From Candidatus Auribacterota bacterium (lineage in GTDB: Bacteria; Auribacterota; JAFGBW01), in the NCBI GenBank assembly GCA_016932965.1, contig JAFGBW010000135.1, positions 1 through 8,645 on the forward strand: a DNA stretch of 8,645 nucleotides, written 5' to 3'. The position numbers and the translations under genes are program-made. Of this stretch, positions 1,738-8,645 are shown in pieces (the stretch's first letter is position 1; the number at the start of each line of letters is the position of its first letter). The notes beneath the pieces are model-generated. The model ran no database searches. It saw only the letters and a program-made list of their open reading frames with translations, and was not told where the DNA came from.

Positions 1738-2991
1738 TCAATTCTCCAAAGGATGAATAAACAGGCCGCTTTTCAGCTTGGGTTCGAACCATGTGGATTT
1801 GGGAGGCATGAGTTTGTTTTCATCCGCTACCTCCATGAGGGTCTCGACAGAAACAGGAAATAAAGTGAACCCGGCTTTCATGTCTCCGGAATTCACTTTT
1901 TTGATGATTTTTTCTATTCCCAGCATTCCGCCGGCAAAATCGATCCGTTCATTGGTTCTGGGATCATGAATTCCCAAAAGGGGCGCCAGCACATTATTCT
2001 GTAAAAAAGAGACATCCAGGGATTCCACCACTTCCTGTTTTTTCAGTTTTTTTGCCTTGGCAGTGAGTTTATACCAGCACTGGTTTAGGTACAGGCCGAA
2101 TGTCCGGGGGGTTTCCGGCTGGAAGGCGGAATCTTTTTCCGGGGAACTGATATGAAAGATGTTTTCCAATCTGGAAATAAACTGTTCAGGTGTTAAACCG
2201 TTGATGTCTTTTACAAGACGGTTATAAGGAAGAATTTTGACCTGATCAGCCGGAAAAAGGACGGAGAGGATAAAATGATAAGGCTCTTTTCCTGTATGGG
2301 ATGGACAGTCTTTTTTTCTTTTACGGGACACGGCAGCCGCGGAAGCCGCGCGATGGTGCCCGTCGGCTATATAGAGATGAGGAATGGATGAGAAAAGTTC
2401 GACGAGTTTTAAAATAGTTTTTTCCTCGGAAATGATCCAGAGCTGATGATGGACCTGTTCCTGACAGATGAAATCATAAATGGGAGAGGAATTGTCCATT
2501 TCCTGAGCCACGATGGCATCAATCTCAGCAAAAGGTTTATAGGTCAGAAAGATGGGTTCAAGCTGGGCGTTCAAGTGATCAATATGACGGGTCCGGTCTT
2601 CTTCCTTGTCTTTTCTGGTGTTTTCATGACGTTTGATGATGCCTGAATCATATTCCTCAACAGAAGTGCATCCGACCAAGCCTGTTTGTGAGTGATCGCC
2701 CATTTGCTGGCGATAGATATACAAACAAGGCGCTGTGTCCTGGACAAGAATTTTTTCCGAAAGAAAACGGTTTAGATTCTTTTTGGCTTTTTCGTATATG
2801 ATAAAGTCATAGGGATTGATTTTCTCTTTGAAATCAGCCTCGGAACGGGTCAAATGAAGGAGACTGTATGGATTGCCTTTTATCAGGGATTTCACATCCT
2901 CCAGGTTCACGACATCATAGGGGGGACAAGCAACCTGTTCCACTAGCGAAGGAGAAGGTCTCAAAGCTTTGAATGGAAGAAGAATAGCCAT
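1738..2991 (-). CDS. DUF1015 family protein (COG4198-type), function unknown
   Basis: This 417-residue protein matches the DUF1015 family in length and signature motifs; I know of no established function to assign. Visible landmarks: an N-terminal PPYDV (23-27), NPYSLLHLTR (40-49), KRHENTRKDKEEDRTRHI (120-137) rich in charged residues, and IADGHHRAASAAA (208-220), the most characteristic block, whose His and Arg residues look like a catalytic or phosphate-binding site. No signal peptide or membrane segment is visible, so it is probably cytosolic. The start follows a plausible sigma70 promoter, but only a weak purine stretch (GAAAGAA) precedes the ATG and no proper Shine-Dalgarno is seen. It is the first gene of an apparent operon with gmhB, kdsB and kdsA, and its TGA abuts the gmhB ATG with no gap. 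Involvement in sugar or serine/phosphate metabolism would be a guess from context only. Confidence 0.88.
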   Translation of the reverse strand: MAILLPFKALRPSPSLVEQVACPPYDVVNLEDVKSLIKGNPYSLLHLTRSEADFKEKINPYDFIIYEKAKKNLNRFLSEKILVQDTAPCLYIYRQQMGDHSQTGLVGCTSVEEYDSGIIKRHENTRKDKEEDRTRHIDHLNAQLEPIFLTYKPFAEIDAIVAQEMDNSSPIYDFICQEQVHHQLWIISEEKTILKLVELFSSIPHLYIADGHHRAASAAAVSRKRKKDCPSHTGKEPYHFILSVLFPADQVKILPYNRLVKDINGLTPEQFISRLENIFHISSPEKDSAFQPETPRTFGLYLNQCWYKLTAKAKKLKKQEVVESLDVSFLQNNVLAPLLGIHDPRTNERIDFAGGMLGIEKIIKKVNSGDMKAGFTLFPVSVETLMEVADENKLMPPKSTWFEPKLKSGLFIHPLEN

Positions 2992-3023
2992 GATTTACAA
3001 TTCTTTCATTGATTTAGCTGAGA

Positions 3024-3052
3024 AGGATAACTTAAATCGGCTGTCCTTACAA
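3024..3052 (-). promoter_or_regulatory. Putative sigma70-type promoter for the DUF1015-gmhB-kdsB-kdsA operon
   Basis: On the minus strand a TTGTAA box (3047-3052) and a TATCCT box (3024-3029) are separated by exactly 17 bases, each matching the -35 and -10 consensus at four of six positions. They sit in the 73-base gap between the nfu-like stop and the DUF1015 start, giving a leader of roughly 25-30 bases. The position is right for the operon promoter; the match quality is moderate. No rho-independent terminator is evident in the same gap, so read-through from the nfu-like gene is possible. Confidence 0.45.
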
Positions 3053-3064
3053 GAAAATTAGAGG

Positions 3065-3322
3065 TCATACCGGAACGACTTTGATCTGGGGATCCCATTC
3101 TTTTTTCAAGACATTCTGGATCGCCATGAGTGTTCCCATGGTTGCGTGTGCGCAGCAGCCGCAGGCACCCTGATAATGAATGGAAAGGACCTTGTTTTTT
3201 TCATCGTATCCGACCACTTCCAGATCTCCGCCGTCATTTTGGAGAGCAGGGCGGATGGACTTATCTAAGAGCGCTTCGATTTCGCTGAGTTTAGTGGAAT
3301 CTGTCTTTTCGTGTTCGGTCAT
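3065..3322 (-). CDS. NifU C-terminal (NFU) domain Fe-S cluster scaffold protein
   Basis: An 85-residue cytosolic protein consisting of essentially one NFU domain, which holds a transient Fe-S cluster between two subunits and passes it to target enzymes. Hallmarks: IRPALQNDGGDLEVVG (23-38), the typical helix-to-strand entry of the domain, and GACGCCAHAT (52-61) carrying the CxxC pair Cys54 and Cys57, with an additional Cys56 between them. The family more often has G-x-C-x-x-C-P/S-S at this point, so the CGCCAHA version is a variant. It lacks the IscU-like N-terminal part of full NifU and the degenerate A-type domain of NfuA, so it is a stand-alone Nfu. An AGGAG at 3330-3334 sits seven bases before the ATG and fixes the start. 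It stands apart from its neighbours (87 and 73 bases), with its own likely -10 box upstream. No other Fe-S assembly gene is in the window. Confidence 0.92.
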   Translation of the reverse strand: MTEHEKTDSTKLSEIEALLDKSIRPALQNDGGDLEVVGYDEKNKVLSIHYQGACGCCAHATMGTLMAIQNVLKKEWDPQIKVVPV

Positions 3323-3368
3323 CTGCTTTCTCCTGTTAAAGTGTTGGGATTTTCTAATGCAGATTTTT

Positions 3369-3374
3369 ATTATA
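3369..3374 (-). promoter_or_regulatory. Putative -10 box (TATAAT) for the nfu-like gene
   Basis: The minus strand carries a perfect TATAAT within ATTATAAT, about 46 bases upstream of the nfu-like ATG, which would give a leader of around 40 bases. No convincing -35 box is found 16 to 18 bases further upstream (the hexamer at 17 is AATCCT). A short palindrome GGATAATCC lies just upstream and could be an operator, but it is short enough to be chance. Confidence 0.35.
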
Positions 3375-3409
3375 ATACAATCGGATTATCCAGGATTTAT
3401 TTTTCAATC

Positions 3410-4480
3410 TCAGTGATGATGTTTTTTTCTCAGGCCTAATATTTTAGGGATATTGACGTTAAAGGGGGGCTGGATAAAACCCTTTTCTGTAAAGAATCCG
3501 CGGATGAGAGAGGATTCCGTGACATCAAAAGCCGGATTGTAGACACGAACATTTGAGGGGGAAACCGGCATCCCTTTGAAGTGAGTCACTTCGGTTTTGG
3601 GTCTTTCTTCGATTTCGATCTCATCTTCAGAGGATGTGTTCAGGTCGAACGTGGAGGAAGGCGCAGCGATGTAAAACGGGATATGAAACTGGGAAGCCAT
3701 CTTGGCTAGCGTGTATGTTCCGATTTTATTGGCAGAGTCGCCGTTTCTGGCGATCCGGTCCGCACCGGTGATGATGAGATGGATCACGCCTTTTTTCATC
3801 AGGTAGCCGGCCATGTTGTCACAGATAAGAACCGTGTCAATTTCAGCTTCAGTCAATTCAAAGGCGGTGATTCTGGATCCCTGAAGCAAAGGCCGGGTTT
3901 CATCCACATACACGGTGAATTGTTTCCCTTCTTTTTTTGCCTGATATAGGACGGAGAGTGCGGTTCCGTTTCCGCCGGTCGCAAAAGCGCCCGCGTTGCA
4001 GTGGGTCAGGATATTCATGCCGTTCTTAATAAAATGAGAGCCGGTCAATCCGATGGTTTCGCATATCATCTGGTCTTCCATGTGGATGGACAGGGCTTCT
4101 TTCAACAGCGTTTCCTGGTACAGAGCCGCGTCATCATGTTTGAAGGTTTCAGAGACATGGATCATCCGGTCGACAGCCCAGAACAGGTTTACTGCCGTGG
4201 GCCTGGCTGTTTTTAAATATTGGGCCGCGGCGAGCAGGCGGGATTTTAAAAAAGGCACTTTTTTTTCTTCCGCGGTTACAAGGTCCACGCAGAGTCCGTA
4301 TGCGGCGGCAATCCCGATAGCAGGAGCGCCCCGAACGGAGAGTGTTTTGATAGCCTGCCATACTTCCTCTTTGCTTTTGCAGTTCAGATATTTTTTTTCC
4401 AGAGGAAGTTTGGTCTGATCCAGTATCCTAAGAAACCCTTCTTTTCTCCATTCCAGAGTCTTTGGTATGCTTAAGGTCAT
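3410..4480 (-). CDS. mtnA: S-methyl-5-thioribose-1-phosphate isomerase
   Basis: MtnA converts the aldose methylthioribose 1-phosphate to methylthioribulose 1-phosphate in the methionine salvage pathway, recycling the methylthio group left by polyamine synthesis or other SAM use. The 356-residue length is typical of this eIF2B-related family. Diagnostic segments: LSVRGAPAIGIAAAYG (47-62), THCNAGAFATGG (159-170) with catalytic Cys161, DETRPLLQGSRITAFEL (193-209), ICDNMAG (219-225) and GADRIARNGDSANKIGTY (239-256) with catalytic Asp241. Cys161 and Asp241 match the catalytic pair of the Bacillus enzyme. The C-terminal part has VRVYNPAFDVT (311-321). The paired catalytic residues favour MtnA over related ribose-1,5-bisphosphate isomerases or eIF2B-like proteins. 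The start gives the expected short N-terminus before LEWRKEG, but no Shine-Dalgarno precedes it. No other salvage gene (mtnK, mtnP, mtnB, mtnC, mtnD) is adjacent. Confidence 0.93.
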   Translation of the reverse strand: MTLSIPKTLEWRKEGFLRILDQTKLPLEKKYLNCKSKEEVWQAIKTLSVRGAPAIGIAAAYGLCVDLVTAEEKKVPFLKSRLLAAAQYLKTARPTAVNLFWAVDRMIHVSETFKHDDAALYQETLLKEALSIHMEDQMICETIGLTGSHFIKNGMNILTHCNAGAFATGGNGTALSVLYQAKKEGKQFTVYVDETRPLLQGSRITAFELTEAEIDTVLICDNMAGYLMKKGVIHLIITGADRIARNGDSANKIGTYTLAKMASQFHIPFYIAAPSSTFDLNTSSEDEIEIEERPKTEVTHFKGMPVSPSNVRVYNPAFDVTESSLIRGFFTEKGFIQPPFNVNIPKILGLRKKHHH

Positions 4481-4553
4481 TATTTATCGTTATTTCAATT
4501 TTGAAGATGATAGTTTCGGGAAAAGTTTATTAGAAAAAAGATTCTCAGTACCC

Positions 4554-4584
4554 TTTTCAAATAGGAAAGGTTCTCTTTTGAAAA
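4554..4584 (-). repeat. Perfect 8-base inverted repeat in the fliN-mtnA gap
   Basis: Arms TTTTCAAA (4554-4561) and TTTGAAAA (4577-4584) are perfect inverted copies around a 15-base loop. The AT-rich stem makes a strong transcription terminator unlikely. It could be a protein-binding dyad, or part of the mtnA leader or fliN trailer, or chance in an AT-rich gap. Its right arm overlaps the T-run of the neighbouring hairpin by a few bases. Confidence 0.35.
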
Positions 4585-4603
4585 AAGACCGAAGGAGCCT
4601 TTT
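4581..4603 (-). terminator. Weak hairpin with T-run after fliN, possible terminator of the flagellar operon
   Basis: Just downstream of fliN the minus strand reads AAAAGGCTCCTTCGG and then TCTTTTTT. AAAAG pairs with CTTTT, extended by G-T, C-G and T-G pairs around a five-base loop, and a run of six T follows the inner stem. The pattern of A-run, hairpin and T-run is that of a rho-independent terminator, but two wobble pairs and few G-C pairs make it weak. It lies 18 bases beyond the fliN stop, where a terminator is expected. The rest of the 140-base gap up to mtnA holds only the inverted repeat listed separately and no clear promoter. Confidence 0.35.
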
Positions 4604-4620
4604 CTTTTTGCTTTTTCCAA

Positions 4621-5016
4621 TCAAGCACTCTTTGCGGAACCACCGAGGTGCTGGATGCGTGCAGCGGCGCCCAGGATTTCGGTGATACGTACCCCGAAAT
4701 TTTCGTTGATGACAACGACTTCTCCCCTGGCAACCATGGCTTTATTGACAAAAACATCCACGGGTTCTCCGGCGAGCTTGTTGAGTTCAATGACCGAACC
4801 CGGAGCCAGTTCCAGAACATCTTTAATCATCATATTGGCTCTTCCCAGTTCTACGGTCACTTCCACGTTGATATCCAGAATCAAGTCCAGGTTCTGGGTA
4901 TTTTCTTTTGCCGATCCTTCCTGAATAGGGGTGAATTTCACCGGTCTTCCGGTGAGGTTTTCCTCCAATTCATTTTCGGATTCTTTTTTCTGATCATTTG
5001 GTTCTTTTTCCGGCAT
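4621..5016 (-). CDS. fliN: Flagellar motor switch protein FliN
   Basis: FliN forms the lower part of the flagellar C-ring with FliM, helping switch rotation and docking the export ATPase complex through FliH. The 131-residue protein has a charged, probably flexible N-terminal stretch (1-42, rich in Glu and Lys) and a C-terminal SpoA domain (about 43-118). The domain is recognised by LDINVEVTVELGRA (47-60), then LELAPGSVIELNKLAGEPVD (68-87) and ARGEVVVINENFGVRITEI (96-114). It is the plain FliN form, not the longer FliY with CheC-like repeats. The start overlaps the fliM end by 23 bases in another frame; it is supported by GGAGG at 5026-5030, nine bases before the ATG. It is the last flagellar gene of the run; no fliO, fliP, fliQ or fliR follows. 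Confidence 0.95.
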   Translation of the reverse strand: MPEKEPNDQKKESENELEENLTGRPVKFTPIQEGSAKENTQNLDLILDINVEVTVELGRANMMIKDVLELAPGSVIELNKLAGEPVDVFVNKAMVARGEVVVINENFGVRITEILGAAARIQHLGGSAKSA

Positions 5017-6049
5017 TGGCGATTTCCTCCCTGTTTTCAGTCACAATGGAAACGAGTTGAACAGCTTTCCTTTTTCCTATGATTCCCGGATTGGCCAGGA
5101 ATTCATTTTTTTCTTCCACCTGCACGAGAAGAGGGTTACGGACCTTCTGTTCCATCATGATCACGTCGTTTTTTTTCAATTCTAAAAGTTGACGGATGGT
5201 CAGAAGCGTTTTGCCTAAAATAGCAGAACAGGTGAGCGATGATTTTTCCAGATTCTTTTTCAAAGAAATTTTCATGTCTTCCGTCGGTTTTTTTTGGGCG
5301 GCAGCGATCCAGTGCTGGGCACTCAGAGAAGACATGATGGGTTCAAGATAAACAAACGGAAAGCAAATACTGGCGATACCCGTGACAGGGCCCACTTTCA
5401 TTTCACAGCTGATCAAAATGACCGTTTCACCAGGGGCCACTACTTGCACAAACTGGGGGTTGACCTCCCTTTCTTCTATACGCAGATCAAATTGAATGAT
5501 GTTGTTCCAGGATTCCCTTAAACCCTCCAGAAAGATATCGAGTACTTTTGAAATGATGGACTGTTCGATATCAGTTAAAGCCTTGATTTCCGCAGGGGGA
5601 TGTCCCGGCCCTCCAAGAAGCCTGTCAATGATCGTATAGACAAGGACAGGATTGATTTCCAAAACAGCCCGGCCTTCCATGGGTTTGATGCTGAATACGT
5701 TGATACAGGTGGGATTGGACAGCGACATGTTGAATTCACCGTATGTGAGCTGGTCAACCGCAACAAGATTGACCTCCACGATGGTCCTCAAATAGGTTGA
5801 AAGATTGGTCGTTAAAAAGCGGCAGAAGGTTTTATGTAGCATCTGCAGCGTCCGCATCTGGTCCTTGGAAACGATGTCCGGGCGCCGGAAATCGTATTTT
5901 CCGATGAGTTTTTCTTCCTTCCCTTCAGCGGTGATGCCGGCAGAGGTTGCGATACGGGCGGCGGTTTCTTCTTTGGGGCTTTCTATCCCGCCCGTTGATA
6001 AGGCGGAAAGAAGGGCATCTACTTCATCCTGGGAAAGAATATCAGCCAT
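4994..6049 (-). CDS. fliM: Flagellar motor switch protein FliM
   Basis: FliM links the chemotaxis signal to the motor: phospho-CheY binds its N-terminus, its middle domain contacts FliG, and its C-terminus pairs with FliN. The 351 residues match the family. The CheY-binding peptide ILSQDEVDALLSAL (4-17) is intact, followed by a linker (18-48), the CheC-like middle domain (about 49-240) with the FliG-contact loop LLGGPG (144-149), and a C-terminal SpoA domain (about 265-340). The conserved CheY peptide implies that the motor is chemotactically controlled, although no che gene is in the window. Its start overlaps the stop of the GNAT gene by eight bases (ATGGCTGA); a GAGG at 6058-6061 lies eight bases upstream of the ATG. 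Its end overlaps fliN by 23 bases. Tight packing on both sides points to coupled translation. Confidence 0.97.
   Translation of the reverse strand: MADILSQDEVDALLSALSTGGIESPKEETAARIATSAGITAEGKEEKLIGKYDFRRPDIVSKDQMRTLQMLHKTFCRFLTTNLSTYLRTIVEVNLVAVDQLTYGEFNMSLSNPTCINVFSIKPMEGRAVLEINPVLVYTIIDRLLGGPGHPPAEIKALTDIEQSIISKVLDIFLEGLRESWNNIIQFDLRIEEREVNPQFVQVVAPGETVILISCEMKVGPVTGIASICFPFVYLEPIMSSLSAQHWIAAAQKKPTEDMKISLKKNLEKSSLTCSAILGKTLLTIRQLLELKKNDVIMMEQKVRNPLLVQVEEKNEFLANPGIIGKRKAVQLVSIVTENREEIANAGKRTK
5026..5030 (-). promoter_or_regulatory. fliN: Ribosome binding site for fliN inside fliM
   Basis: The minus strand reads GGAGG nine bases before the fliN ATG, embedded in the last codons of fliM. It decides the fliN start and explains how fliN is translated despite the 23-base out-of-frame overlap. 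Confidence 0.7.
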
Positions 6050-6842
6050 GGTGATTGCCTCTTATGCTTTTTCCAATGCCTTCGAAATACTCATTTTTTT
6101 TGATAAAGCCGATCCGGCGGTATAAGAGAATCGCCTGCGCATTACCCCGGTTCACTTTGATGCTGATGCAGTCAAACACCTCTTCCTGCAGCGACTGGCA
6201 TAATAGAAGAAGGGCGGAGGTGGCATATCCCTTGTTTCTGTAATCGCTGTCAGTGATCACGTTTCCGATGGTGGCGGTGCGATAATCAAAACAGAGAACC
6301 GTGGTGCCGGCCATGGAGACGAGTTTGTCTTCTTTTTGAACTCCAAAATAGATGCCATGATTGAATTGATCCACGTCGAAAACACCTTTTTCCACATTAC
6401 GAAAATATAGATCCCTGGCTTTGGGGAAGTCTTCCGGAGCCAGACGGCGTACCTCGGAGCTGACGGGAAAGGAATTAAAGCGGAAATGTTCCAGCTTCAT
6501 TTTATGCATGATCAGGGCTGAATCAAAGTGGTAATGTTCCTTTAAAATGCCAATGCAGCTGATCGGCGCCTCAACAAAGATTGTTTTCGGTATGATTTCA
6601 GAACGGATGATATAAGCCAGACAATTAGGTTCACCGGCAAGAAAAACCGGCGTGGGAGAAAGATGCTTGAACATCAGCGCCAGACCCAAATTGGTCCCCT
6701 CCTGATGGCCGTACCAGGAAGCCACGGACCAGATCCGGTCATCCAGACTCATGAGGGCCTCCGATGCCCAGACACGGTCGAGGGAGAGATAATCGGAAAT
6801 CAGTTTCCGGTCATGAATTAGTGCGATGGATTCTTGCATCAT
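6042..6842 (-). CDS. GNAT-family N-acetyltransferase with extra N-terminal domain, embedded in the flagellar operon
   Basis: A 266-residue protein with a C-terminal GNAT acetyl-CoA-dependent acetyltransferase domain (about 128-260). Motif A is ATIGNVITDSDYRNKGYA (190-207), containing the pyrophosphate-binding RNKGYA; motif B is NRGNAQAILLYRRIGF (231-246), with the typical Asn, Ala, Tyr and Gly-Phe. The N-terminal ~125 residues show no motif I recognise and may be a degenerate second GNAT fold or a substrate-recognition domain; the layout recalls FR47-like two-part acetyltransferases. No signal or membrane segment is visible. It lies 15 bases after the fliL stop and overlaps the fliM start by eight bases, so it is certainly part of the flagellar unit. 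The substrate is unknown: a flagellar protein, a glycan precursor or a small molecule are all possible. Start at the first of two adjacent ATG codons; the Shine-Dalgarno is weak. Confidence 0.88.
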   Translation of the reverse strand: MMQESIALIHDRKLISDYLSLDRVWASEALMSLDDRIWSVASWYGHQEGTNLGLALMFKHLSPTPVFLAGEPNCLAYIIRSEIIPKTIFVEAPISCIGILKEHYHFDSALIMHKMKLEHFRFNSFPVSSEVRRLAPEDFPKARDLYFRNVEKGVFDVDQFNHGIYFGVQKEDKLVSMAGTTVLCFDYRTATIGNVITDSDYRNKGYATSALLLLCQSLQEEVFDCISIKVNRGNAQAILLYRRIGFIKKNEYFEGIGKSIRGNHHG

Positions 6843-6857
6843 GATTTTGCTTTTTCA

Positions 6858-7394
6858 TCATTGTATGACAAAGTCCCTGAAAAATACATCTTTTACCTGT
6901 CCATTGATCAGCAGTTCGTTTAGTTTATCGCGGATTTCCCTTTTAATATTGTTCCTGGAAGCGGGATTGTCGATCTGTTCCATGGGTTTTGAGCTGAAAA
7001 TGGAATTCAAAATATCCGTCATCTGATACTTTCTGGTTTCGAATTCTTTTTTCATCTGATCCTCGTTCTTGGCTTCGAGTTCCAAACTCACGCTCACTTT
7101 GAGATATCGGGTTCCCTGGGTGCCCATGATGTTGACGATCAAGGTGTCGAAAGATTCGATCAGATCAGGCATTTTTTTATCTTCAAGTATTTCTTTTTCA
7201 ATCCCCGGTTTTTCTGTTTCCACTTTCAGGAATGATTTCATGCCGAAAAAGGTACCAGTCCCCAGGAAAATAATAAGAAGACCTCCGATAAGCATGTTTT
7301 TACCGCTCAAGAGCTTTTTTTCAGCCGGAGCAGTCGGCTGCTCTTTTTTTTCCTGCCCTTGTTGCGGAGCAGCGCCTTTTTTTTCTTCTGCCAT
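6858..7394 (-). CDS. fliL: Flagellar basal body-associated protein FliL
   Basis: FliL is an inner-membrane protein that surrounds the stator units and supports motor torque. The 178-residue protein has a short Lys/Gln/Pro-rich cytoplasmic N-terminus (1-32), a single membrane segment (about 33-52, in MLIGGLLIIFLGTGTFFGMK) and a periplasmic FliL domain (about 80-178). Typical features are FDTLIVNIMG (82-91), RYLKVSVSLEL (96-106), and the final helix and strand with IRDKLNELLINGQVKDVFF (154-172). A strong AGGAGG at 7400-7405, five bases before the ATG, fixes the start. It sits 32 bases after the FliL-like gene and 15 bases before the GNAT gene. Of the two FliL proteins in the window this one is closer to the canonical form. 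Confidence 0.93.
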   Translation of the reverse strand: MAEEKKGAAPQQGQEKKEQPTAPAEKKLLSGKNMLIGGLLIIFLGTGTFFGMKSFLKVETEKPGIEKEILEDKKMPDLIESFDTLIVNIMGTQGTRYLKVSVSLELEAKNEDQMKKEFETRKYQMTDILNSIFSSKPMEQIDNPASRNNIKREIRDKLNELLINGQVKDVFFRDFVIQ

Positions 7395-7399
7395 GGGAT

Positions 7400-7405
7400 C
7401 CTCCT
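7400..7405 (-). promoter_or_regulatory. fliL: Strong ribosome binding site for fliL
   Basis: A perfect AGGAGG on the minus strand five bases before the ATG at 7394. It is the best Shine-Dalgarno in the flagellar run, suggesting that fliL is translated well and independently of the gene upstream. Confidence 0.7.
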
Positions 7406-7426
7406 AAAAAATGGACATTATCTTGA

Positions 7427-8035
7427 TTATTTAGTCTCCAGTAGAATCAGATTTTCTTTTGCCAAGTGTCGAATTTTATATTTACTAAAGAAAATATCCC
7501 TCACCTTTGTTGTTGACAAGGTAGCGTTCAATTCGTCACGAATCAATCTTTTTAATTTGTTTTCTTCACTGAGCGTGTCGATATCCCAGGACCTTTTTTC
7601 CAAAAGGACCGAAAGGATCTTATCCCTGAGTTCTGCTTCCCGGCTTGCGCACTCAAAAAGGCCGCTGTCGTTACTGATAGCGAGATGGATTGAGAGGATC
7701 AGGCTTTTGGGATTATCTGTGTCTTGTAGATTGGCTTCCAGATCATTCATGGAATAGATGGGGTCTGAATATTGATTTTTTTTTCTGGAAGTATAAAGGG
7801 GGGAGGAATAGACAGACTCTGCCCCATGATAATACCCCATTTTGAAAACGCCGTATTCGGAGCCAGCCACAATGAAGATGAGAAGAACAAGCACCCAGGT
7901 TTTAATCGAGATTTGTTTCCAGGATGAATTTTGAACCGGTCCTGGAAACATGGTGTCCGGTACAAGCGGCATACCGGGAACTTCCGGTTCAGGGATCATT
8001 GGTTTGTTCTCTTCCATTGGATTTGGATCAGCCAT
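7427..8035 (-). CDS. Divergent FliL-like protein (second FliL paralogue)
   Basis: A 202-residue single-pass membrane protein with FliL architecture. It has a Pro/Met-rich cytoplasmic N-terminus (1-40, repeated PEPEVPGMP-like stretches), a membrane segment (about 43-62, within SIKTWVLVLLIFIVAGSEYG), a linker rich in Tyr and Ser (63-95), and a FliL-type periplasmic domain (about 108-190). The domain is recognised by alignment with the adjacent FliL: SLILSIHLAI (111-120) against the RYLKVSVSLEL strand, and KRLIRDELNATLSTTKVRDIFFSKY (162-186) against the IRDKLNELL/VKDVFF helix and strand. Similarity is clear only in these parts, so an ancient duplication is likely. AAGGAG at 8042-8047 lies six bases before the ATG, which overlaps the motB stop by eight bases. 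Role inferred: stator-associated, alongside MotB and FliL. Confidence 0.8.
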   Translation of the reverse strand: MADPNPMEENKPMIPEPEVPGMPLVPDTMFPGPVQNSSWKQISIKTWVLVLLIFIVAGSEYGVFKMGYYHGAESVYSSPLYTSRKKNQYSDPIYSMNDLEANLQDTDNPKSLILSIHLAISNDSGLFECASREAELRDKILSVLLEKRSWDIDTLSEENKLKRLIRDELNATLSTTKVRDIFFSKYKIRHLAKENLILLETK

Positions 8036-8645
8036 TTTTGACTCCTTCCTCAGTCGGTTGAGTGACGTCCACCTGGATTTCCACCCTCCGGTTCATTTTT
8101 TTTCCATGAAGAGTTTCATTAGTGGTACGGGGTTTGAATTCCCCGTGTGCAACCGCCTGGATTCGTTTAGGGGAAATCCCTGCCTCGACAAAATAATGCA
8201 GCACGGAAAGCGCCCTGTCAGAGGATAATTCCCAATTCGATTGATATCGGGTAGTGGCGATCAGTTCATTATCCGTGTGTCCTTCAATGCTCATGGGAAA
8301 GGGGACTTTCTGGAATAATTCAACGAGCTTATCCAACAGGATTGTTGTTTTTTTGTCTTTCTTCAGGAGCGAATTGCCGCTTTTAAATAGGAGGGATTCA
8401 GGAAGATTGACCGCCATTTTGTTTCCATTGACAGAGGCGGTCAGAAGATTGGTGATCTCCATTTCTACAGCGATGCTTTTAATTTTTTTGGCAAGATTCT
8501 CCAAGTATTTTTGGTTCGGATTTTTGGGTTCTGTGAAAGGTTTACCCTGTTTCGAATGGAAAAGCGCCGCAACAGGGGTGGGGAGTTTATTGATAAGTGC
8601 CGCAGCCTTGTTGTTAGCCAGAAGTCCCAGTGAACTCTGCAAGGA
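8028..8645 (-). CDS. motB: Flagellar motor stator protein MotB, 5' end cut by window edge
   Basis: MotB pairs with MotA to form the ion-driven stator and anchors it to peptidoglycan. The reading frame is open to base 8645, so the visible 205 residues are the C-terminal part; a TTG at 8642 is only an internal codon. The N-terminal membrane helix with the ion-binding Asp lies outside the window. The visible part begins with QSSLGLL, a segment usually found just after the MotB helix and plug region. The OmpA-type peptidoglycan-binding domain follows, marked by MSIEGHTDN, NWELSSDRALSVLHYF, RIQAVAHGEFKP and the closing MNRRVEIQV. The flagellar neighbours favour MotB over a general OmpA-family lipoprotein. 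Its stop overlaps the start of the FliL-like gene. motA is expected just upstream. Whether protons or sodium drive it cannot be told without the N-terminus. Confidence 0.9.
   Translation of the reverse strand, partial: SLQSSLGLLANNKAAALINKLPTPVAALFHSKQGKPFTEPKNPNQKYLENLAKKIKSIAVEMEITNLLTASVNGNKMAVNLPESLLFKSGNSLLKKDKKTTILLDKLVELFQKVPFPMSIEGHTDNELIATTRYQSNWELSSDRALSVLHYFVEAGISPKRIQAVAHGEFKPRTTNETLHGKKMNRRVEIQVDVTQPTEEGVKNG

Follow-up and report, generated by a model that had tools for sequence, protein, structure and literature searches.

An acetyltransferase gene of the tandem-GNAT type placed between fliL and fliM in the flagellar motor operon of one order of Auribacterota

The extra gene and its neighbours

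The window, by which we mean the whole 8,645-nt stretch of DNA analysed, carries on its minus strand the gene run motB-fliL-fliL-GNAT-fliM-fliN (Table 1). A preliminary description of this DNA had placed a GNAT acetyltransferase gene between fliL and fliM, 15 bases after the former and overlapping the latter by eight bases, and our coordinates agree with it (6843–6857 for the gap, 6042–6049 for the overlap). No terminator-like site was found on the coding strand at either the fliL-GNAT or the GNAT-fliM junction, and promoter-like matches were at chance level. Separately, positions 4480–8645 (plus strand) hold 17 terminator-like matches against 5.3 expected from shuffled sequences, nearly all of them on the non-coding strand and within genes; the excess is probably a composition effect.

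Table 1. Features of the motor operon in the window
Feature	Position	Strand	Basis or remark
motB/OmpA-type stator gene	8028..8642	-	apparently truncated by contig end
Second fliL-like gene	7427..8035	-	family match
fliL	6858..7394	-	PF03748, 73 bits
fliL-GNAT intergenic gap, 15 bp	6843..6857	-	without terminator-like site
GNAT acetyltransferase gene, 266 aa	6042..6842	-	tandem-GNAT type
Motif A acetyl-CoA loop codons D200-Y-R202-N-K-G205-Y-A207	6222..6245	-	R202 and G205 conserved through the family
Y241 codon, counterpart of RimI-type general-acid Tyr	6120..6122	-	RimI alignment; conservation
fliM	4994..6049	-	PF02154, 218.6 bits; start codon within GNAT 3' end
fliN	4621..5016	-	family match

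The placement is conserved within the order

The closest matches among 59 relatives came from G001 and G002, which belong to two genera in a second family of the same order; together with G000, the genome of the window, these are the three genomes by which the order is represented. All three, spanning two families, carry a GNAT orthologue at the same site. The preliminary description would have been contradicted if no close relative had the gene at this site, and the opposite was seen; a chance insertion is ruled out by the presence of the gene at one site in three genera. The gene order in G001 is motA-like, motB, fliL, fliL, GNAT, fliM, fliN. The same run is found in G002, there divided between two contigs that overlap at their ends and encode identical GNAT residues in the overlap (IFLECPLDFVGIVKKMYYFPVARIM), so that most simply they represent one gene.

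Spacing between the GNAT gene and fliM is tight in all three genomes (-8, +3 and +2 bp), and each GNAT 3' end contains a stretch rich in purines that could serve fliM as its ribosome-binding site (AAGAGG, AAGGAGG and AAGGAG). The gap upstream is looser, at 93 bp in G001 and 214 bp in G002 when the first in-frame start is taken, suggesting that it is the coupling to fliM, and not that to fliL, which is conserved. Moreover, comparison of the orthologues in the three genomes gave 39–46% and 73% for the GNAT and 42–43% and 61% for FliL, that is, the gene has diverged about as much as its neighbour, which argues that it is under constraint. Conservation of the placement across the order thus bears out the link with the motor operon that had been claimed earlier.

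The gene was not found in the gap outside the order

A clear FliM was present in 7 of the 44 phylum genomes examined. In the four flagellated ones outside the order (G007, G014, G021 and G015), fliL directly precedes fliM, and a family-profile search of the phylum members found one further copy of the GNAT, in G039, with no flagellar neighbour in the surrounding stretch. Tandem fliL-type genes, as in the window, were seen in all flagellated phylum members examined, which suggests that the fliL pair predates the insertion of the GNAT gene.

We also surveyed the distance between the FliL and FliM domains in 384 genomes across bacteria. FliL was sought among the matches listed, and all FliM matches but a handful of the weakest were used; at least 81 FliM matches had a listed upstream FliL within 5 kb. 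Among the matches listed, the distance was 64–420 bp in 79 genomes, too short to leave room for an extra gene of 800 bp, while it was 965 bp in G000 and 1033 bp in G001. Inspection of the best 29 new FliM neighbourhoods revealed no relative of the window GNAT. Among the genomes surveyed, presence in the gap is therefore a feature of the order only and not of flagellated bacteria at large, as it would be for a member of the core flagellar gene set. The earlier statement that acetyltransferases are not standard members of fliL-fliM-fliN clusters holds for the four phylum genomes and for the 79 others, and the same absences and short gaps disfavour an ancestral operon member that was lost elsewhere.

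Catalytic domain

The GNAT protein matches PF00583 over residues 129–254 (E 2.8e-11; 44.1 bits, cut-off 20.7), and this model and related GNAT models together cover only about residues 123–254. The protein has a catalytic GNAT domain of about residues 129–259 and an N-terminal half, residues 1–124, that is probably degenerate. The family is COG3393/FR47-like. The acetyl-CoA loop pattern R/Q-x-x-G-x-G/A is satisfied by R202-N-K-G205-Y-A207, as it is in all three orthologues, and R202, G205, N234, Y241 and G245-F246 are retained in the motor-operon clade and in its relatives, compatible with an active acetyl-CoA enzyme. At the same time, 14 positions are fixed in the motor-operon clade differently from most relatives. 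Judged from its sequence, then, the protein is predicted to be a catalytically competent tandem-GNAT acetyltransferase.

Among curated models, that of RimI, the ribosomal protein S18 alanine N-acetyltransferase (TIGR01575), comes nearest to the catalytic domain, with 30.7 bits against a cut-off of 86.4. The catalytic residues of RimI are Glu103 and Tyr115; the general-acid tyrosine is common to both proteins (Tyr241 stands at the Tyr115 position), while Lys229 occupies the position of Glu103, and a RimI-like N-alpha mechanism is therefore not indicated. RimI is, moreover, single-domain, unlike the window GNAT. Identity as either RimI or PseH (see below) was rejected on the cut-offs of the curated models.

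N-terminal half and structural comparisons

No Pfam or NCBIfam family matched the N-terminal ~125 residues, and to that extent the preliminary description, which recognised no family there, was right; on the other hand, full-length collinear homologues contain this half. Since it is common to the homologues and aligns, at low model confidence, with tandem-GNAT folds, a novel domain is not supported, a degenerate GNAT half being the simplest account. An internal duplication was not detected when the profiles of the two halves were compared (hhalign probability 3.6%).

An AlphaFold model of the protein has a mean pLDDT of 67.9, good in the catalytic half and poor over most of residues 1–67, with values below 50 at residues 1–16 and 29–67; a second structure prediction, from a two-row alignment, reached a pLDDT of 45.6 and was not used. 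Foldseek and VIA-align both placed 3ec4, a putative tandem-type GNAT from Novosphingobium aromaticivorans, first (Z 17.9 over 211 residues, rmsd 3.5, 17% identity over the structural alignment), followed by 1sqh from Drosophila, GLYAT and tandem GNATs. The same 3ec4 was also the best profile match among PDB sequences (1.5e-11). The alignments span residues 5–261 with 1sqh and 5–260 with GLYAT, in a model that is of low confidence in its N-terminal half. Given that several alignments cover nearly the whole chain, the likeliest reading of this half is that it corresponds to the non-catalytic part of a tandem GNAT.

As is predicted for the window GNAT, GLYAT (7pk0, 7pk1) consists of two GNAT halves with the active site in the C-terminal one, and the two match at Z 16.0–16.6 over 240–242 residues. 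They differ in that GLYAT acts on a metabolite and has 8–9% identity to the window GNAT, in which the Glu226-His263 dyad of GLYAT (PMC12509317) was not located.

SpeG and DpA are among the sequence and structure matches of the catalytic half, which could point to acetylation of polyamines, with motility tuned by the level of the product, as with Dpa in Acinetobacter baumannii, where a polyamine acetyltransferase is reported to regulate motility (PMC10267138). However, these matches are to the part of the fold that GNATs have in common, both Dpa and SpeG consist of a single domain, and the protein scores far below the curated SpeG model (13.3 of 218 bits), so that we think this reading quite improbable.

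Family, origin and the possible capture of a metabolic gene

Five other PF00583 matches are present in G000, none of them a further copy of the window GNAT. Among the 384 genomes, roughly twelve more contain full-length collinear homologues, as do 11 of 39 genomes from one other phylum; in many genomes the profile matches cover about 250 of 262 positions. Around ~23 homologues elsewhere, no gene resembling fliL, fliM, fliN or motB of the window was seen in flanks of 1.5 kb, and around the GN15 homologue no such gene was seen within about 6 kb before it and 2 kb after.

In the tree, the three motor-operon copies form one clade (support 99/98, and 100/100 with more members) on a long stem branch, suggesting considerable sequence change on or after recruitment. 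The simplest reading is one recruitment into the fliL-fliM gap, followed by divergence, and we consider recruitment into the motor operon, with co-expression and coupling with fliM, to be very probable. The preliminary description had allowed that orthologues found mostly away from flagellar genes, with another known substrate, would count against its reading. Half of this is seen: the wider family does lie mostly off flagellar loci, but no other substrate has been assigned to it, and the clade of strict orthologues occurs in the motor operon only.

The scattered, non-flagellar contexts of the family agree with the main rival to the modification of a motor or chemotaxis protein, which is nearly as likely: that the enzyme has a metabolite for its substrate, either a small amine or a compound resembling an amino acid, as is the case for GLYAT and SpeG-type GNATs. 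A near-neutral insertion would have left a usable fliM ribosome-binding site, and the link to motility would be one of co-expression only. A single recruitment event suffices for it, and GLYAT, which acts on small molecules, is among the top structural matches over the full length. Against this, the gene has held its place and its coupling since the two families split, under constraint similar to that on FliL, and the long stem points to much change on or after recruitment. We regard capture of a metabolic gene as a serious contender, if somewhat short of probable.

A possible role in the motor

The placement is confirmed and specific to this lineage; the enzyme fold is ordinary, and its location is what is unusual. 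Conservation of the placement suggests that the enzyme modifies something used by the motor or by chemotaxis, and our best guess, held tentatively, is an amine of a protein that belongs to one of these two systems. CheY and flagellar proteins are both known to be acetylated. In other bacteria, acetylation of CheY is reported to affect both the binding of FliM and motility (PMC9927263). Under the mechanism that we propose, a tandem GNAT would have entered the gap between fliL and fliM a single time, before the members of the order diverged, and have been kept there, translationally coupled, so that it would be made in step with the C-ring proteins; it might then acetylate a primary amine on a switch-contacting protein (FliM, FliN, CheY or the stator), and motor output would come to depend on the acetyl-CoA level, in a manner comparable to the known acetylation of CheY. 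This fuller version, in which the C-ring operon of this order encodes a dedicated motor acetyltransferase whose action on a protein of the switch, the stator or the chemotaxis system makes rotation or switching respond to acetyl-CoA status, seems to us possible and rather doubtful.

Points against a motor-protein substrate are the lack of a flagellar link in the wider family and the small number of genomes, three, by which the order is represented. A substrate-lysine signature in the FliM of the order was likewise not apparent, order-specific lysines (7 of 48) not being significantly enriched (p=0.06). Our literature searches found no report of an acetyltransferase encoded within a motor-switch operon, and those on flagellar-operon GNATs or COG3393 returned nothing relevant. 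Should the enzyme act on the motor, the switch would have a built-in input from metabolism, with the substrate among few candidates; if it does not, the locus would show clearly how a highly conserved operon can capture a metabolic gene.

Flagellin glycosylation and sugar pathways in the genome

The preliminary description had also proposed a sugar precursor for flagellin glycosylation as a possible substrate. Such a role would resemble that of PseH, a GNAT of the flagellin pseudaminic-acid pathway which has a flagellar link in common with the window GNAT. We know of no tandem-GNAT PseH. PseH has one domain and a length of about 180 aa (PMC4363471), and its model (TIGR03585, cut-off 93.1 bits) gave no match to the window GNAT at E<=1, leaving the proposal without sequence support. 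The genome does encode two flagellin-type proteins and, on contig C243, a pseudaminic-acid cluster in which PseB, PseI and PseF exceed their cut-offs, PseG falls just short of its own and no GNAT is present, which would fit an enzyme encoded elsewhere that replaces PseH in acetylating a nucleotide-sugar precursor. However, a formyltransferase in that cluster could fill the PseH step, and another GNAT of the genome is weakly PseH-like. A sugar role is accordingly possible and not favoured, and replacement of PseH by the window GNAT we consider unlikely.

This PseH-like protein, a 162-aa GNAT at C211:14129-14617, reaches 46 bits with the PseH model; its contig also carries flg genes and a flagellin-type protein. 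In the C243 cluster (positions 1790-6960 of the stretch examined), the formyltransferase and an LmbE-type deacetylase seem to occupy the place of PseH, and the product is possibly an N-formyl nonulosonic acid. Four over-cut-off NeuB-family genes, on contigs C243, C133, C200 and C161, indicate that the genome probably encodes several nonulosonic-acid or related sugar pathways.
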